Below, in pieces: positions 21,937 to 28,548 of a stretch of DNA of 64,000 nt. Source of the DNA: Thermosynechococcus sp. (GTDB taxonomy: Bacteria > Cyanobacteriota > Cyanobacteriia > Thermosynechococcales > Thermosynechococcaceae); the NCBI RefSeq assembly GCF_025999095.1, contig NZ_AP024678.1, positions 1,085,527-1,149,526 of the forward strand, given 5' to 3'. Below the pieces are notes generated by a model, which was given only the letters and a program-made list of their open reading frames with translations, made no database searches and was not told the DNA's origin. Every line of letters starts with the position of its first letter. The stretch's first letter is position 1. The position numbers and the translations under genes were made by a program.

Positions 21937-23355
21937 ATGGGCGGATGGGAGTTTTTACTGCAAAAGGAGGGCGATCGGGCTTGGTTGCCCCTAGAGCCAC
22001 CCTCGGCGGAAGTTTTGGAGGGCAGTTATCGCTTGATGGCGCGCTGTCCTGTTCCCGAAACCTCTGTGGAAGTGCAAATTACCCATCTTTACGCTGATCA
22101 GGGGGTGTCCAAGCAACGCTATCAACGCCGCACCCACCGCAGCAGTTCCACGGGACTCATGGGTATTCTGCCCTTTACATATTTGCAGCCGGGGCGTTGG
22201 CAGTTTCAATGCCGTGTGGCGCGAGAGGGGGTCCTGGATTCAGAGGTGTTTGCGATCGCCCTTGATGTCCTTGCCCAAAGCGAAGAGTGGGACTTGCCCA
22301 CACCAGAAACCTTTCCTGCGGTTCCAGAGCAGCCAGTTAAAGCCGCCGACCCCCCTCAGCCCCAAGAACCCTCCCCTGCGCAGTTGCCGACGACGCTGAT
22401 TGAGCTGCCCCAAAGTGCCTATACAATCTTTGCCGATGAAACGTTGGTTTTGGCGGGCACAGTTGCCGTTCCCGGTACAGTGGTGATTCGCCTGCGCAAT
22501 CCCGTCACCCGGGAGGTGGTACAGGAGCACTCAGTGCCAGCGATCGCCCGCGAGGAAAAATGGGGGTTTCAGTGTAGACTCACCCCCTTGGCCGATTATC
22601 CAGTGATGGTGGGGGAAGCCCGCCTCCTACCCAACAACCCCCTGGAACACAGCGATCTGCGCCAAGTCCAAGCCTTTATGGTTACGGTGCTCCCGGTACC
22701 CGAGATGCCTGCTGTCTCTGCGCCATCCCAAATTTCCCCCCCGCAGCGCAAAACGCCCACTGGCCCGCAGTTGCCCATCTTAGGGGATACGGCCCTCCAA
22801 CCTGTGCCGGTGAGCGGTTTTTCCCTACCGCCCCAACTGAAGCCTGGGAAAGCGCCCGTTGTTGTGGATTTACCCAGCTTTTGCCAGCCCCTATCTGCGG
22901 TTACTGTACCACCGCCTCGCGATTTGCCCATCGATCGCCAAAAGCGATTTTGGTTGCGATTGCAACAGTTGGCTGAGTTAGCGCCCCCCCTTGAGACCAC
23001 GCCCCCAGTATCCACAAATTCTGAGGGTACCTATCTATTGACTCCACCCCAGCTCCTGCTGTCACCGGAGCCACTGGTACCACCGCTGCACCTGAAGGTG
23101 AATTTGCCTGCAACCCAACGGGGTTGCTCCGTCAAGGTGTGGATCACCAATGGCGAAACAGGAGAGTTAATTGCGGGCCCCCGCTGGCTAGTGGAGTTTG
23201 ACTTTTATCGCTATGGGGATTACTGGCAAACTGTCCTTCACATTGACGTGCCAGCAAAGGTGCGTTCCATTGCCCTGATGGCGATCGCCATTGACCCCAA
23301 AACAGGCGCAGAAAGCCCCACTGTGACCCTGCGCCGCCAGTTACAGGCCCCCTAG
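21937..23355 (+). CDS. Conserved hypothetical protein with proline-rich linkers
   Basis: A 472-residue protein with no assigned function. The N-terminal part contains GGWEFLLQKEGDRAWLPLEP and LMGILPFTYLQPGRWQFQCR, a region that looks like a beta-rich domain; a second such module follows (YTIFADETLVLAGTVAVPG and WGFQCRLTPLADYPVMVGEA). Proline-rich stretches separate these from a third beta-rich region (VKVWITNGETGELIAGPRWL). No signal peptide or membrane helix is seen. The two FQCR repeats suggest internal duplication. Its last four bases overlap the convergent MBL-fold gene. Confidence 0.65.
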   Translation: MGGWEFLLQKEGDRAWLPLEPPSAEVLEGSYRLMARCPVPETSVEVQITHLYADQGVSKQRYQRRTHRSSSTGLMGILPFTYLQPGRWQFQCRVAREGVLDSEVFAIALDVLAQSEEWDLPTPETFPAVPEQPVKAADPPQPQEPSPAQLPTTLIELPQSAYTIFADETLVLAGTVAVPGTVVIRLRNPVTREVVQEHSVPAIAREEKWGFQCRLTPLADYPVMVGEARLLPNNPLEHSDLRQVQAFMVTVLPVPEMPAVSAPSQISPPQRKTPTGPQLPILGDTALQPVPVSGFSLPPQLKPGKAPVVVDLPSFCQPLSAVTVPPPRDLPIDRQKRFWLRLQQLAELAPPLETTPPVSTNSEGTYLLTPPQLLLSPEPLVPPLHLKVNLPATQRGCSVKVWITNGETGELIAGPRWLVEFDFYRYGDYWQTVLHIDVPAKVRSIALMAIAIDPKTGAESPTVTLRRQLQAP

Positions 23356-24974
23356 CTTTCGGGTTCCGGTTGCGTTTCCGCCCGCTCAAAAGCAGGACAA
23401 TAGCCCTCCGGTGCCACTTTAAAGTTATAGAGCGCAGAGGCTTCGTTCCAGCAGCGTTGACCGCGATAAAACTGGCAGTTAAAACAACTGGGCTGGTCGG
23501 GCGCGATCGTGGCTGAGGTACCACCGAGCACTTCTTTGGGGGTCATGCCGCGAATCAGTAATTGCTCCCCTTGCCAAGCGGCCAACACAAAGCCGGTATC
23601 TGCCAGCCGTCGCCAGCGCGGATCGGTGGTAATAGAAGCCGGTAGGCGAATCATGGCTTCATCGTTCCACTCACTCACCTCTCCTTCATAGGCCAGTTGC
23701 ACCAATGAGCTGGGCGTCGAAAGTGTCAATTGGCCAATGGGAAATTGAATCGTTGAGCCACTGGTGGGGGTGTGCAGATGGTAGCGGTTACTCAATTCAT
23801 TCAGGCTAGCCAAGTCTGCAAGGTAGTTGGGATCGCCGTGGATAAGTACCACATGCTGCGGTCGGATATTGTGAATCAGTTGAGTGGTGGCAGGGCCATC
23901 GGCATGGAGGGAGAGTAAAAACGTATCCACCTCCACATTGGGTAAGTCTGCGAAGTCAGGATAGCCTTCCCGCACGGGTTGACCATAGCGCAGACGTGGA
24001 TAGAGCACCAGCCAAGGTCGTCCCCCTTGGGTCACGTAGGGGCGCAGGTCTTGATCCTCCTCAAGCAGGACAATGGTGGGGTCAGCCCCCTGAATTTGGG
24101 TCACATCGCTTAGGGGCTGCACTTGGGGCTTGACCCGCCGATCCCAAAACAGGGCTTGGTGTTGGGCAAAGTTTTGAATAGTGGTGGGTAAATGGGGCAA
24201 AATTGTCAGGTAGGTATCACAACCGCGGGCGATCGCCGGCCCCACCCAAATCTGAATCGGCTGTCCTGTAAAGAGATGATGACTGCGCAAGAGGATGAGA
24301 ATTTCTTGGGCGGTGCCGAGGGGAGGCAGGGGAAGCAATAGGTTATAGCCCTGGTCAATCGCTGTGCGGATGCGTTCCGCCAATTGATTTTCCTGTTGCC
24401 GGCGGTGGGGGTGGCGCGCTGTGCCCAAGCTGCCCTCAATGATTAGGACATCCGGTTGCAATCCCCGTAGATCCGCAAGGGGTAGTCCTTCCGTAAAGCG
24501 GGTATGGGAGAGGAAAAAATCCCCCGTATAAACCACACTCAGGGGCGGTTGCTCTGTGTTTGGATCTTGATAGGTGAGGACAAAAACCGCTGCCCCCGGC
24601 AGATGCCCCGCAGGAAAGAGTTCAGCGGTCAGGCCATCGCCAAACTCCACGGGCGATCGCCAAGGCAAGGCACGGCAAAAGGGAGGCACGGTTTCATCTG
24701 GCCAATTCAGGGGCAACAGTTGCGTTGTAACTTCGCTGGCATAGATCGGGATATGGGGGAAACGGCGATGGAGTGCCAACAGACTGCGGGCATGATCCGC
24801 GTGGGCATGGCTACAGAGCACTAGGTCAAAGGGATGCTGTTCAATCTCATCAAGGGGCAAGACATCAAGGGACGGCACACCGCAGTCCAGCAAAATCCGA
24901 TAGGTGCCAATTCCTAAGCCAATGCACACCCCCTCCTCAGCGTGACCCACCCCATAGTTGAGGCACTCGATCAT
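23352..24974 (-). CDS. MBL-fold metallo-hydrolase with beta-CASP-like region
   Basis: Zinc-dependent hydrolase of 540 residues. The metallo-beta-lactamase fold is shown by LCSHAHADHARSLL (HxHxDH), FPAGHLPGAAVFVL and SVVYTGDFFLSHTR, followed by VLIIEGSLGTARHPHRR. The middle has the features of beta-CASP RNA-processing nucleases (NLLLPLPPLGTAQEILILL, HVVLIHGDPNYL), and the C-terminal extension contains CFNCQFYRGQRCWNEAS, a possible metal-binding cluster. Related proteins process or degrade RNA, so a nuclease role is likely but not proved. Confidence 0.85.
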   Translation of the reverse strand: MIECLNYGVGHAEEGVCIGLGIGTYRILLDCGVPSLDVLPLDEIEQHPFDLVLCSHAHADHARSLLALHRRFPHIPIYASEVTTQLLPLNWPDETVPPFCRALPWRSPVEFGDGLTAELFPAGHLPGAAVFVLTYQDPNTEQPPLSVVYTGDFFLSHTRFTEGLPLADLRGLQPDVLIIEGSLGTARHPHRRQQENQLAERIRTAIDQGYNLLLPLPPLGTAQEILILLRSHHLFTGQPIQIWVGPAIARGCDTYLTILPHLPTTIQNFAQHQALFWDRRVKPQVQPLSDVTQIQGADPTIVLLEEDQDLRPYVTQGGRPWLVLYPRLRYGQPVREGYPDFADLPNVEVDTFLLSLHADGPATTQLIHNIRPQHVVLIHGDPNYLADLASLNELSNRYHLHTPTSGSTIQFPIGQLTLSTPSSLVQLAYEGEVSEWNDEAMIRLPASITTDPRWRRLADTGFVLAAWQGEQLLIRGMTPKEVLGGTSATIAPDQPSCFNCQFYRGQRCWNEASALYNFKVAPEGYCPAFERAETQPEPES

Positions 24975-25209: not shown

Positions 25210-26025
25210 TTATTTGCGGGGACTTGCTGATTTTCTCTCCTCAAAGTAACGGAGTTGTCGCCAACCAACAAAATTTGCGTAGGACTGGCGATCGCCCATA
25301 CATTCCGCCACGTGTTCTAGGGGAGAGAGGTGCTTTGGTTCTGCTCCCGCCAAGCGCTCATAGAGGGCAAGATCAGAGGCAGGGTCACTGCGTTGGCCAT
25401 CCCGCAGATAGTAGGACACCCGCGCACAACGGGCCACAGACATATACTTGCACTCCTCAAGACTATATTGCTGGCGCTCAGTCGGATCGATGTAGGGGAG
25501 GTGCCAATCCCCCACAGCCACAGGAGTGGGTTCATGGGTCTGCAGCAAATGCTGAATCAGCTTGGCCAAGGCCTGCATTTCTGGCTGGGCATCGGGGTGA
25601 TTGCGCAGGCGCAGAAAGTTATCCCACTCGGTACTGCTGACAACCGTTTGCATCCACATCCACGGTTCAAGCATGCGGTTGACCACTTGCTTGTGAATTC
25701 CCAGCTCATGGAGCTGGCGTGCCCCCTCAAGAACTGCGAGGCGAGTTTTCAGCCAGATTTCCTTTGCCGCCTCCTTTTGTTCACTTTCTTCGCGGGCCTG
25801 CATCCCCCGCTCGTTTTTTCCCCAATGGTAGGGGACGACTGGGTTCTGTTCCACTTGTTCGATCATTTTAGCCACAGGAACGGCTCGCGAACTGGCGGAA
25901 TTGCGAGAAAACACGCGGTGGGTGAGGAGTTCACTATGGATAAAGCGCGGATACGTGAGTTGAAGTGTCACCAAGCGCACCCCTACTGGCGAAATGGAAT
26001 CAGCAATTACACGCCCGTCTTGCAT
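25210..26025 (-). CDS. thyX: Flavin-dependent thymidylate synthase ThyX
   Basis: Makes dTMP from dUMP using methylenetetrahydrofolate with FAD and NADPH. The protein has 271 residues. The ThyX signature is present as THRVFSRNSASSRAVP, where the usual arginine of RHRxxS is threonine, with the flanking serine/arginine residues kept. PYHWGKNERGMQA follows, then LRLRNHPDAQPEMQALA and ECKYMSVARCARVSYYL. This longer ThyX form is common in cyanobacteria and phages. No thyA is seen in the window. Confidence 0.9.
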   Translation of the reverse strand: MQDGRVIADSISPVGVRLVTLQLTYPRFIHSELLTHRVFSRNSASSRAVPVAKMIEQVEQNPVVPYHWGKNERGMQAREESEQKEAAKEIWLKTRLAVLEGARQLHELGIHKQVVNRMLEPWMWMQTVVSSTEWDNFLRLRNHPDAQPEMQALAKLIQHLLQTHEPTPVAVGDWHLPYIDPTERQQYSLEECKYMSVARCARVSYYLRDGQRSDPASDLALYERLAGAEPKHLSPLEHVAECMGDRQSYANFVGWRQLRYFEERKSASPRK

Positions 26026-26354: not shown

Positions 26355-27179
26355 ATGCCAATTACGAGTCAAGTTTCTTGTGTTCCCGAGTCTCTAAAGT
26401 CCTACGTCCAGATTGATGGCTGGGGCGAAGTTCCTGTTGTGCTTGGGCATGGCTTTGGTACTGATAAAAGCGCTTGGGACTATTTAACCCCTTTCTTCCC
26501 TGAGGGCTTCACCTATATCCGCTATGATCTGGCAGGCTGTGGCTCCGAAGAGGATACGCAACGCCGCTATGATGTCCAAAGACACAGCCATCTGTATGGC
26601 TATGCCGATGATCTGATTGAATTGCTGGATACCCTTGGCGTGCAATCTTGCATCTATGTGGGCCACTCGGTCAGTTGCATGATCGGTGCCATTGCCGCGA
26701 TCGCCAGACCTGATTTATTTCGACGACATATCTGGATTGGGCCCTCCCCCTGCTATCTCAAGGATGAGAACTATCCGGGTACCCTCACCCCCGACGACCT
26801 ACAGGCCACTTATGAGGCAATGGTCACGAACTATCAAGCATGGGCGGCGGGTTTTGCCCCACTCATGTTTGGGGTGAAGGAGGAGCACCGGCTGGCCGAC
26901 TTTTCTAAGACCCTCTTTCGATTGCAGCCAAGGATTGCCCTGCGCACTCTCCAGATGATTTTTGACTCCGATACCCGTTCCTTTGTCGGCAAGGTACAGC
27001 AGCCTGTCCACCTAATCTTTAACCGCGCTGACTTCGTAGTTCCCCCAGGGGTAGCCCTGTGGTTACATGCCACCTTGCCCCACAGTACCCTTGATTGGAT
27101 CGAGGCTCAAGGCCATCTTCCCCACATGACCCATCCCACAGCCGTTGGTTCTTTGCTGAAAAAATACATAAGCACATAA
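26355..27179 (+). CDS. RsbQ-like alpha/beta hydrolase
   Basis: Alpha/beta-hydrolase of 274 residues, closest in appearance to Bacillus RsbQ and the plant karrikin/strigolactone receptor group (KAI2/D14). The catalytic triad can be read as S105 in YVGHSVSCMIG, D226 in NRADFVVPPG and H254 in QGHLPHMTHP. GPSPCYLKDENYPG is the RsbQ-type cap region. RsbQ works as a cofactor of the PAS-phosphatase RsbP, presumably binding or making a small ligand. Here the next gene, 34 bases on, encodes a PAS-GGDEF protein, so this is likely its partner. Confidence 0.9.
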   Translation: MPITSQVSCVPESLKSYVQIDGWGEVPVVLGHGFGTDKSAWDYLTPFFPEGFTYIRYDLAGCGSEEDTQRRYDVQRHSHLYGYADDLIELLDTLGVQSCIYVGHSVSCMIGAIAAIARPDLFRRHIWIGPSPCYLKDENYPGTLTPDDLQATYEAMVTNYQAWAAGFAPLMFGVKEEHRLADFSKTLFRLQPRIALRTLQMIFDSDTRSFVGKVQQPVHLIFNRADFVVPPGVALWLHATLPHSTLDWIEAQGHLPHMTHPTAVGSLLKKYIST

Positions 27180-27213
27180 ATAAAAAAAATATACAATCTA
27201 CTCTGGTTAGGGC

Positions 27214-28548
27214 ATGCTAAAAAAAGTGCAGGAACATCTACCCCGCCAGCTTCTTCCCGCGCCCGATAGTATCACAGCATTTTGTCATCTAATTGCCAAT
27301 TGGTCGCAATCTGAGCTCGTTCTCGCCCTAACTATTGATCAGCAAGGCAATCGCGCCCAAATTATCACCACAACCAGCACTAGCAAATTTCCCAATCTGG
27401 AAATTGTCGCCCCCTGGCGAGAGTTGGTCCAGGGGGCGGTCATTGATGTTCTGCCTTTTCTCAAACTGCCCTCTATTTTTTTCTGTCTTTTAAATAAGGT
27501 TGAGCGAATTGTTTACATCCCCTGCGGTGAGCCCGAGGATTGGTGCCAGGGGTTGCTACTGGTGAATCCCGTCGCCGACCCGCTGCGGCAACTCACAGAA
27601 CAGAAAGGCTACATTGCGGCTCTGTACCGCCAACTGTTGATCCATCATCGTCAAAATCAAGATAGCGTCATCTTCGAAGTACAATTTCAGGATATTTTCG
27701 ACACAGTGCCGCTGGGCTTGGTTTTAATCAAAGGGGATGGCTCTACAGCGATGGTCAATTCCTACGCTGCTCAATGGCTGCAACTGCCAGCGGGGAGCCA
27801 TCCCGTTCAGATCGTTGCCGAGCACATGAAACAGGCGCGGCAGAGATGCGATAACTGCGATGAGCTAGTCAACCTTTTTCAAGGGCTGGCTACTAATGCC
27901 AACTTCAGTGCTCAGGGGGAGTGTCGAATGGGTGAGAAAACATTTCTCATTGATACCCACCCGGTGCGTGGCGATAGTCGCCTAGGGCGCGTGTGGATCT
28001 TGTCTGACATCAGTGATATGCGTCAGCGGGAGCAAGCACTTTTGGCTCTGGCTTGGTTAGATCCCCTCACTGGCGCTTTCAATCGTCGCTTTCTGTTGAG
28101 TCGAGTTGAGGCTTATGAGTCCCAAGCCGCTACGGGAGGCACCCTGCTCACGGTCATGATTTTTGACATTGATCACTTTAAGCGCATTAACGATACCTAT
28201 GGTCACGATCAGGGGGATGTGGTTCTGCGCACCTTGGCGGCAAGGGCAAAGCAGGTATTAGAGGGCTGCCAAGACGGCATTTTGGTCCGCTGGGGGGGCG
28301 AAGAATTTGTGCTGTTGTTTTTTGCTGCCTACGCAGACCAGGCGAGAGCAGTTGCTGAGGAACTGTGCTCAGTGGTGAGAAGCCAGCCCGTGGAACTTGC
28401 AGATCAGCAGTTTTTGTCTGTGACAATTAGTTTGGGTGTCACTCTGTTTAGAGTGGGGGAACAGGTGCTCAGTGACTCAATTCCTCGTGCTGATCAAGCT
28501 TTGTATCAGGCGAAACATGGGGGGCGCGATCGCTGGGTGTGGGCATAG
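27214..28548 (+). CDS. PAS-GGDEF diguanylate cyclase
   Basis: Signalling enzyme of 444 residues predicted to make cyclic di-GMP. The N-terminal 150 residues have no clear assignment. A PAS domain lies at about 165-270 (DIFDTVPLGLVLIKGDGS, VWILSDISDM). The C-terminal GGDEF domain starts at LDPLTGAFNRRFLLS and carries the active-site motif RWGGEEFVLLF with substrate-binding FDIDHFKRINDTYGHDQGD. No RxxD inhibitory site stands five residues before GGEEF. It lies 34 bases after the RsbQ-like gene and is probably in one transcript with it. Confidence 0.9.
   Translation: MLKKVQEHLPRQLLPAPDSITAFCHLIANWSQSELVLALTIDQQGNRAQIITTTSTSKFPNLEIVAPWRELVQGAVIDVLPFLKLPSIFFCLLNKVERIVYIPCGEPEDWCQGLLLVNPVADPLRQLTEQKGYIAALYRQLLIHHRQNQDSVIFEVQFQDIFDTVPLGLVLIKGDGSTAMVNSYAAQWLQLPAGSHPVQIVAEHMKQARQRCDNCDELVNLFQGLATNANFSAQGECRMGEKTFLIDTHPVRGDSRLGRVWILSDISDMRQREQALLALAWLDPLTGAFNRRFLLSRVEAYESQAATGGTLLTVMIFDIDHFKRINDTYGHDQGDVVLRTLAARAKQVLEGCQDGILVRWGGEEFVLLFFAAYADQARAVAEELCSVVRSQPVELADQQFLSVTISLGVTLFRVGEQVLSDSIPRADQALYQAKHGGRDRWVWA

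Follow-up and report, generated by a model that had tools for sequence, protein, structure and literature searches.

A KAI2/D14-like hydrolase gene paired with a GAF-PAS-GGDEF gene in Thermosynechococcus

The plant strigolactone and karrikin receptors of the KAI2/D14 group act through MAX2 and SMXL proteins, and the bacterial hydrolase RsbQ is said, in the title of a 2024 paper by Melville cited in PMC13192556, to perceive butenolides. Here we describe a two-gene locus of Thermosynechococcus, a cyanobacterium of hot springs, that encodes an alpha/beta hydrolase and, directly downstream, a GAF-PAS-GGDEF protein. It lies in a stretch of 64,000 nucleotides (hereafter called the window, whose numbering is used for all positions) of a 2.5-Mb single-contig genome. 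The hydrolase falls with the plant receptors rather than with RsbQ, and the pair, which is also found in bacteria from soil, is likely to be a chemical sensor that acts on cyclic-di-GMP.

The RsbQ-PAS module is among the nearest known systems. A 2011 study (PMC3183031) reports 45 such pairs; all of them come from organo-heterotrophs, and their output is a phosphatase, a kinase or a cyclase. In them the RsbP-type PAS domain is always N-terminal, never has a DIT motif and carries an hPCG signature before its first strand, with C in 80% of cases; RsbQ binds this domain directly, as seen by two-hybrid and pull-down assays, and requires its catalytic triad. The main text of that paper does not mention cyanobacteria. 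For the plant receptors, a KAI2 review states that KAI2 possibly arose by transfer of a bacterial RsbQ (Wang 2022, cited in PMC10504578), RsbQ serves as an outgroup for KAI2/D14 (PMC13086240), and a 2017 study that added three RbsQ sequences obtained a tree that reads differently when rooted on RbsQ or on Selaginella KAI2 (PMC5490202). Plant biologists are still looking for KAI2's own ligand.

Conservation of the pair and concordance of its two lineages

The two reading frames lie where the original prediction had placed them, on the same strand and 34 bases apart (Table 1), and a simple scan listed no promoter-like site in the gap. The hydrolase and cyclase genes are both present in the same six of 11 Thermosynechococcus genomes, adjacent in all six, and both are missing from the other five. 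In one of these five (G006), the thyX and RND genes that flank the pair in the window are separated by approximately 430 bases, forming an empty site, which indicates that the hydrolase and cyclase genes were gained or lost together; the empty site was seen in this one pair-less genome, and the stretch from another (G009) extends for less than 900 bases on that side. Of note, one Thermosynechococcus genome (L016:116-1455, on G008:C87, and L030) has an intact hydrolase and a cyclase split into open reading frames of 226 and 206 residues, due either to a sequencing error or to pseudogene formation.

We collected relatives by a scan of genome contigs, using the best 80 of 555 confirmed relatives. 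Within this set, eight of the nine nearest loci outside the genus (L031-L039) harbour the pair, with a GGDEF protein of 435-454 residues that has the same architecture and with gaps of -4 to +9 bases; they belong to Stenotrophomonas (four), Sphingomonas (one), Acidisoma (one) and Pseudoroseomonas (two). At the ninth locus, in Sphingomonas mucosissima, the partner is a histidine kinase. Adjacency in a single strain, the observation that the original prediction had named as damaging to it, is thus not what we found, as the pair recurs in cyanobacteria and in proteobacteria. A two-gene hydrolase-cyclase module is well supported by the conserved adjacency and by the joint presence or absence of its genes. 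The hydrolase family is uncommon: counting the centre genomes, it was detected in 22 of 386 cyanobacterial genomes at E 1e-40, in 11 of 385 genomes of the class containing the Sphingomonas genome and in 17 of 247 genomes of the family containing the Stenotrophomonas genome, and at E 1e-80 in 3 of 299 genomes of the order containing the Acidisoma genome, all three already among the known loci.

Classification of 131 loci by their partner, using two home-made profiles, yielded 33 with a PAS domain of the window type (lineage A), 77 with an RsbP-type PAS domain (RsbQ side) and 21 for which no partner was called. Some of the latter (L062, L100) are high in GC, and the picking of open reading frames may have failed there; L154 looks like a duplicate copy of the L033 genome. 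The PAS profiles were built on 10 rows, seven of them among the 33, and on 19 of the 77, respectively, and the A3 hydrolase profile holds nine of the 33. With lineage labels and score limits fixed after inspection of the data, the lineage-A hydrolase profile scores at least 299 at all loci with a window-type PAS and at most 277 at all loci whose main match is RsbP-type, such that hydrolase score and partner PAS type are concordant in 110 of the 110 loci with a partner called. A stray RsbP-type match of 11 bits at L030 stands beside 108 bits for the window type.

The two PAS types also differ in position and motifs. The domain starts at residues 137-303 in the 33 lineage-A loci and at residues 1-69 in the 77 others, and a DIT-like end was found in 29/33 versus 7/77 loci, the window PAS ending in SDIS. 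A G-R-h-W motif is present in 29/33 versus 0/77 loci, and the hPCG signature, searched with a pattern of our own, in 1/33 versus 39/77, with VPLG in the window protein. Profile-profile comparisons of the PAS domains gave 98-99% over 117-119 columns within lineage A and at best 70% over 43 columns between lineages. Ordinary RsbP-PAS identity was considered for the window domain and rejected on position, DIT motif, signature and profile.

The outputs of lineage-A partners vary. A GGDEF match was found in 14 of the 33, one of them probably the second copy of the same genome, and all six of the other partners scanned with Pfam (L018, L019, L038, L075, L106 and L143) are histidine kinases. In seven loci of other cyanobacteria (L018, L019, L047, L053, L058, L075 and L086), the hydrolase gene overlaps by 16 bases that of a 1045-1149-residue protein with a lineage-A PAS; by Pfam, the L018, L019 and L075 proteins are hybrid histidine kinases with receivers and Hpt.

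Kinship and pocket of the hydrolase

Pfam identifies the window hydrolase only as a general alpha/beta hydrolase. Its catalytic triad is complete, as predicted: the three residues are invariant in the 11 rows of alignment A1 and in A3, and they align with S95, D217 and H246 of KAI2. The description of the protein as RsbQ-like, with an RsbQ-specific cap, did not hold. In a PDB sequence search, the window hydrolase scored higher with 7ukb (220.7 bits) and plant DAD2 (220.5 bits) than with RsbQ (1wom, 169.4 bits), and the difference is larger for its relatives from Stenotrophomonas (L031; 287 bits with 7ukb and 272.5 with PpKAI2-like C versus 175.8 with RsbQ) and Sphingomonas (L038; 283.6 and 275.3 with plant chains versus 157.2 with RsbQ).

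Trees were built from a 92-row set that includes 30 of the 77 RsbQ-side loci, 30 of the 33 lineage-A loci and six plant KAI2/D14 sequences, all taken from PDB chains. For an 82-row tree and the approximately unbiased (AU) test, L041, L106, L129, L144-L146 and L166-L169 were removed as long, duplicate or partner-less, and the outgroup tree and the test of the plant position used further-reduced sets. The 82-row tree splits the RsbQ side from lineage A and the plants with support of 100/99. In the outgroup tree, the RsbQ side has support of 99/98, and the window hydrolase lies outside the Bacillus RsbQ group. The window group joins the proteobacterial GGDEF-paired rows at 99/93 in the 82-row tree, and a clade of 24 rows, comprising 18 from lineage A (including four from Sphingomonas) and the six plant receptors, was recovered at 99/95 in that tree and 100/99 in the outgroup tree. 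The AU test spoke against the plants belonging with the RsbQ side (p 0.00085) and, reversing the question, against lineage A as a clade without the plants (p 0.00072); these values represent two forms of one test, for groups named after a tree was seen. On these sequence comparisons, the hydrolase belongs to the KAI2/D14-like lineage, not to that of RsbQ.

The cap and the pocket were also compared with those of both groups. The window cap bears a GFAP-type motif shared by 31 of the 33 lineage-A loci and by each of the six plant receptors; it is present in 3 of 77 RsbQ-side loci and missing from RsbQ itself. In a 19-row alignment numbered after the PsKAI2B chain, whose S95, D217 and H246 coincide with the triad, the KAI2 pocket residues F157, F174, I193 and F194 are conserved in the window hydrolase and across the other 11 rows from lineage A. 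At two of these positions the four RsbQ-side rows differ, with L at position 174 and either T or A at position 193.

The exact position of the plants within this assemblage is less firm. The root of the outgroup tree separates the RsbQ side from the remaining ingroup rows; the branches of the outgroup are long (2.1 to 5.1), and rooted lineage A plus plants is weakly supported, at 66/77. When Thermosynechococcus is left out, the plants group with ten proteobacterial GGDEF-paired rows at 98/87, but a tree that keeps the plants out of an assemblage of these rows and the four from Sphingomonas is not rejected (p 0.40); when Thermosynechococcus is included, the grouping has 88/42 (82-row tree) or 96/70 (outgroup tree). 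We tentatively propose, as an idea with somewhat less than even prospects, that the strigolactone and karrikin receptors of plants have as their bacterial sister group a receptor of a butenolide-like bacterial signal, read as cyclic-di-GMP through a GAF-PAS protein, and that plants took their receptor from this GAF-PAS-coupled lineage rather than from RsbQ, swapping its partner. If so, the bacterial cyclase could serve as an assay in the search for KAI2's own ligand. Having a bacterial group closer to the plants, with an enzymatic read-out, would improve the choice of outgroup, offer an ancestral partner that can be tested and allow ligands to be screened.

The partner protein and the surroundings of the pair

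The partner had been described as a PAS-GGDEF protein. Its GGDEF domain is clear (PF00990, 129 bits, E 1.7e-37), with an intact GGEEF sequence that corresponds to the GG(D/E)EF motif of diguanylate cyclases, and the protein probably makes cyclic-di-GMP, as judged from its sequence. The RxxD product-inhibition site is missing in the five intact Thermosynechococcus cyclases aligned and present in 11 of 12 proteobacterial partners compared, L037 being the exception; lacking this site, the Thermosynechococcus enzyme would run free of product feedback. The genome yields 11 GGDEF matches, one of them inside a 91-residue open frame, and the window cyclase is therefore one of several.

The PAS domain is also present, although it is internal and below the Pfam threshold (PAS_8, 16.2 bits for a cut-off of 21.8). 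PAS_8 passes at the same place in four of five GGDEF-paired relatives scanned, namely L031 (26.0 bits), L035 (24.1), L037 (28.8) and L142 (28.5); in the fifth, L082, no PAS cut-off was passed.

A domain of predicted GAF fold before the PAS had been overlooked. In an AlphaFold model of the full partner (10-row alignment), with a mean confidence score (pLDDT) of 82.9, the N-terminal domain is followed by a long helix, which leads to a PAS-like fold and then to GGDEF; the relative placement of the domains is not to be trusted, because the global template-modelling score (pTM) is only 0.44. Residues 1-160 modelled alone gave a pLDDT of 78 and a pTM of 0.74, and the best structural matches of this model are GAF structures (best Foldseek E 2.5e-4; Z in VIA-align reaching 11.5 over 133 residues). 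The list of 50 PDB entries from VIA-align includes 6psk, a phage holin-antiholin complex, as well as 3hcy and 3w2z, whose titles are uninformative on fold. The remaining entries are GAF-bearing proteins (phytochromes, cyanobacteriochromes, phosphodiesterases, DosS and the like). The model thus suggests a GAF fold for the N-terminal domain, other folds being possible. Among lineage-A partners, the fold comparison was made on the window-type domain alone. In profile comparisons, this domain reached a probability of 32% for the Sphingomonas set and 74% for L143, but of 1-2% for L106 and for the kinase set from cyanobacteria.

The pair is flanked by a divergent thyX-like gene on its 5' side and by an RND transporter gene on its 3' side. 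The thyX-like protein (25210-26025; 53.8 bits for an NCBIfam thyX cut-off of 87.9) may be a divergent thymidylate synthase dependent on flavin adenine dinucleotide, or a relative. Farther away, positions 23352-24974 encode a metallo-beta-lactamase/beta-CASP-like protein that scores far under the cut-offs for known beta-CASP nucleases. PADLOC matched neither the hydrolase nor the GGDEF protein.

Table 1. Features of the hydrolase-cyclase locus, in window numbering
Feature	Positions	Strand	Basis
Alpha/beta hydrolase, KAI2/D14-like lineage, 274 residues	26355..27179	+	Open reading frame; PDB sequence search, best to D14/KAI2 chains; trees
Catalytic S105 codon (GHSVS)	26667..26669	+	Invariant in alignments A1 and A3; aligns to KAI2 S95
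Catalytic D226 codon	27030..27032	+	Invariant in A1 and A3; aligns to KAI2 D217
Catalytic H254 codon	27114..27116	+	Invariant in A1 and A3; aligns to KAI2 H246
Intergenic gap, 34 bases	27180..27213	+	Hydrolase and GGDEF reading frames on same strand
GAF-PAS-GGDEF protein, predicted diguanylate cyclase, 444 residues	27214..28548	+	Open reading frame and domain analyses
Predicted N-terminal GAF-fold domain, residues ~17-155	27262..27678	+	AlphaFold model of 1-160, Foldseek, VIA-align
Predicted long helix between GAF and PAS, residues 131-164	27604..27705	+	Full-protein model
PAS domain, residues ~157-268, end GRVWILSDIS (DIT-like)	27682..28017	+	Models and profiles
GGDEF domain, residues 280-440	28051..28533	+	Pfam PF00990
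GGEEF active-site motif; upstream RxxD inhibition site absent	28294..28308	+	Sequence and alignments

Possible mode of action and comparison with known systems

For this pair we observed adjacency, intact motifs, domain order, conservation, joint presence or absence and lineage. The interpretation that we favour, with reasonable though not high confidence, is that of a two-component chemical sensor, in which a KAI2/D14-type receptor hydrolase contacts the PAS domain of its partner and sets cyclase activity. The Ser-His-Asp pocket of the hydrolase would receive a small molecule resembling a lactone or an ester, and the bound or acylated hydrolase would then touch its partner differently, the PAS domain being the most likely site of a direct contact suggested by analogy with RsbQ-RsbP. 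Linked by a helix to GAF on one side and joined to GGDEF on the other, the PAS would shift the meeting of the cyclase halves in the dimer, thereby raising or lowering cyclic-di-GMP synthesis, and the GAF domain would supply a second input. We infer the ligand control of cyclic-di-GMP by the hydrolase, as well as the switching of the dimer, the nature of the ligand and the direction of control. In favour of this account are the recurrence of the pair with the same partner architecture outside the genus, the joint presence or absence of the two genes, the retained triad, and the precedents of RsbQ-RsbP contact and of butenolide perception by RsbQ. Pairwise distances over 14 pairs, which correlate more closely between hydrolase and GAF-PAS (r 0.96) than between hydrolase and GGDEF (0.91), also fit it, yet this may come from shared ancestry alone. 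Such a pair would add a chemical input to cyclic-di-GMP signalling.

Several observations weigh against this interpretation. Two pocket residues of the window hydrolase, L144 and T152 (KAI2 positions 134 and 142), are unique among the 19 rows aligned; L at 134 is common to the six Thermosynechococcus hydrolases and T at 142 is found only in that of the window, a sign of pocket drift within the genus. These hydrolases also evolve fast, with a branch of 1.17 changes per column in the 82-row tree. In the 92-row tree, eleven hydrolases that fall on the side of lineage A (L125-L130, L041, L052 and L144-L146, nine of them inspected a second time) have no partner sensor called, which shows that the hydrolase can occur without such a partner; these might work by themselves or through a distant partner. 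The contact cannot be transferred residue by residue, since the F-alpha residues F55 and Y59 of RsbP-PAS, required for RsbQ contact (PMC3183031), sit in a different PAS type. Finally, disruption of tlr1158, a putative orthologue for which searches returned no architecture, left the blue-light aggregation of T. vulcanus unchanged (PMC5871770). As a separate observation, some of the partner-less lineage-A-side hydrolases adjoin metabolic genes.

Alternatively, the hydrolase might be an enzyme that makes or clears a ligand bound by GAF or PAS, in which case the proteins need not touch; this corresponds to model 1 of Nadezhdin 2011 minus the hand-over. The complete triad is compatible with this, as are the two possible ligand-binding folds of the partner and the G at KAI2 position 119, a residue shared with DAD2 and RsbQ; KAI2 has Ser119 there, which reportedly perturbs the catalytic histidine. 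We nevertheless regard it as unlikely: the RsbQ precedent (PMC3183031) is one of direct PAS contact, and the exceptionless match between hydrolase lineage and PAS type in 110 loci suggests contact rather than a diffusible product.

A reading of the pair as a standard RsbQ-PAS module of the 2011 kind, its output being a diguanylate cyclase, is quite improbable. Gene order and output class are those of some of the 45 published pairs (PMC3183031), and the DIT-like end is not an absolute feature, as it also occurs in 7 of the 77 RsbQ-side loci. However, the window PAS starts near residue 157 after a GAF fold, whereas the published ones are always N-terminal; it has a DIT-like end and no hPCG, it scores on the lineage-A profile, and PAS comparisons between lineages extend over at most 43 columns at 70%, versus 117-119 at 98-99% within lineage A. 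A chance association of a housekeeping esterase with an unrelated cyclase, to which the 34-base gap without overlap and the seemingly unrelated thyX-like and RND neighbours would lend themselves, is highly implausible given the recurrence of the pair in another phylum and its joint presence or absence within the genus.

The original prediction had seen in this locus a little-described system. The general idea is not undescribed, because cyclase outputs of RsbQ-PAS modules were published in 2011 (PMC3183031), but this pair does stand outside the published module. It is thus not a new kind of system, yet it is not the RsbQ-PAS module either. Among the papers listed by searches of an open-licence library, in which most subscription journals are missing, none was seen to describe this GAF-PAS lineage or to relate it to the plant receptors, and the main text of a 2022 census of cyclic-di-GMP inputs (PMC8846402) has no word starting with RsbQ, RsbP or hydrolase.

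Compared with the RsbQ-RsbP and RsbQ-PAS modules (PMC3183031), the locus likewise has its hydrolase gene immediately before that of a PAS signalling protein, keeps the catalytic triad and has an output class, diguanylate cyclase, that is among those of the module; it differs in that GAF comes first, the PAS is internal, DIT-like-ended and devoid of hPCG, and the hydrolase belongs to another clade. The cyanobacterial L018, L019 and L075 loci similarly have a lineage-A hydrolase followed by a protein with a lineage-A PAS, but have, in place of GGDEF, the output of a histidine kinase that carries receivers and Hpt. The cyclic-di-GMP network of the same genus (SesA/B/C, Tlr1612) counts ten synthesis or degradation genes, of which the window cyclase could be one; its named inputs are light and cyclic AMP, a hydrolase input being absent from the available passages (PMC5871770). 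With the plant KAI2/D14 receptors, the hydrolase has in common its lineage, the triad, the GFAP-type cap, F157, F174 and F194, as well as I193 as in KAI2 (V in DAD2). It differs by L and T where the plants have F134 and L or V at 142, and its partner is a GAF-PAS cyclase.
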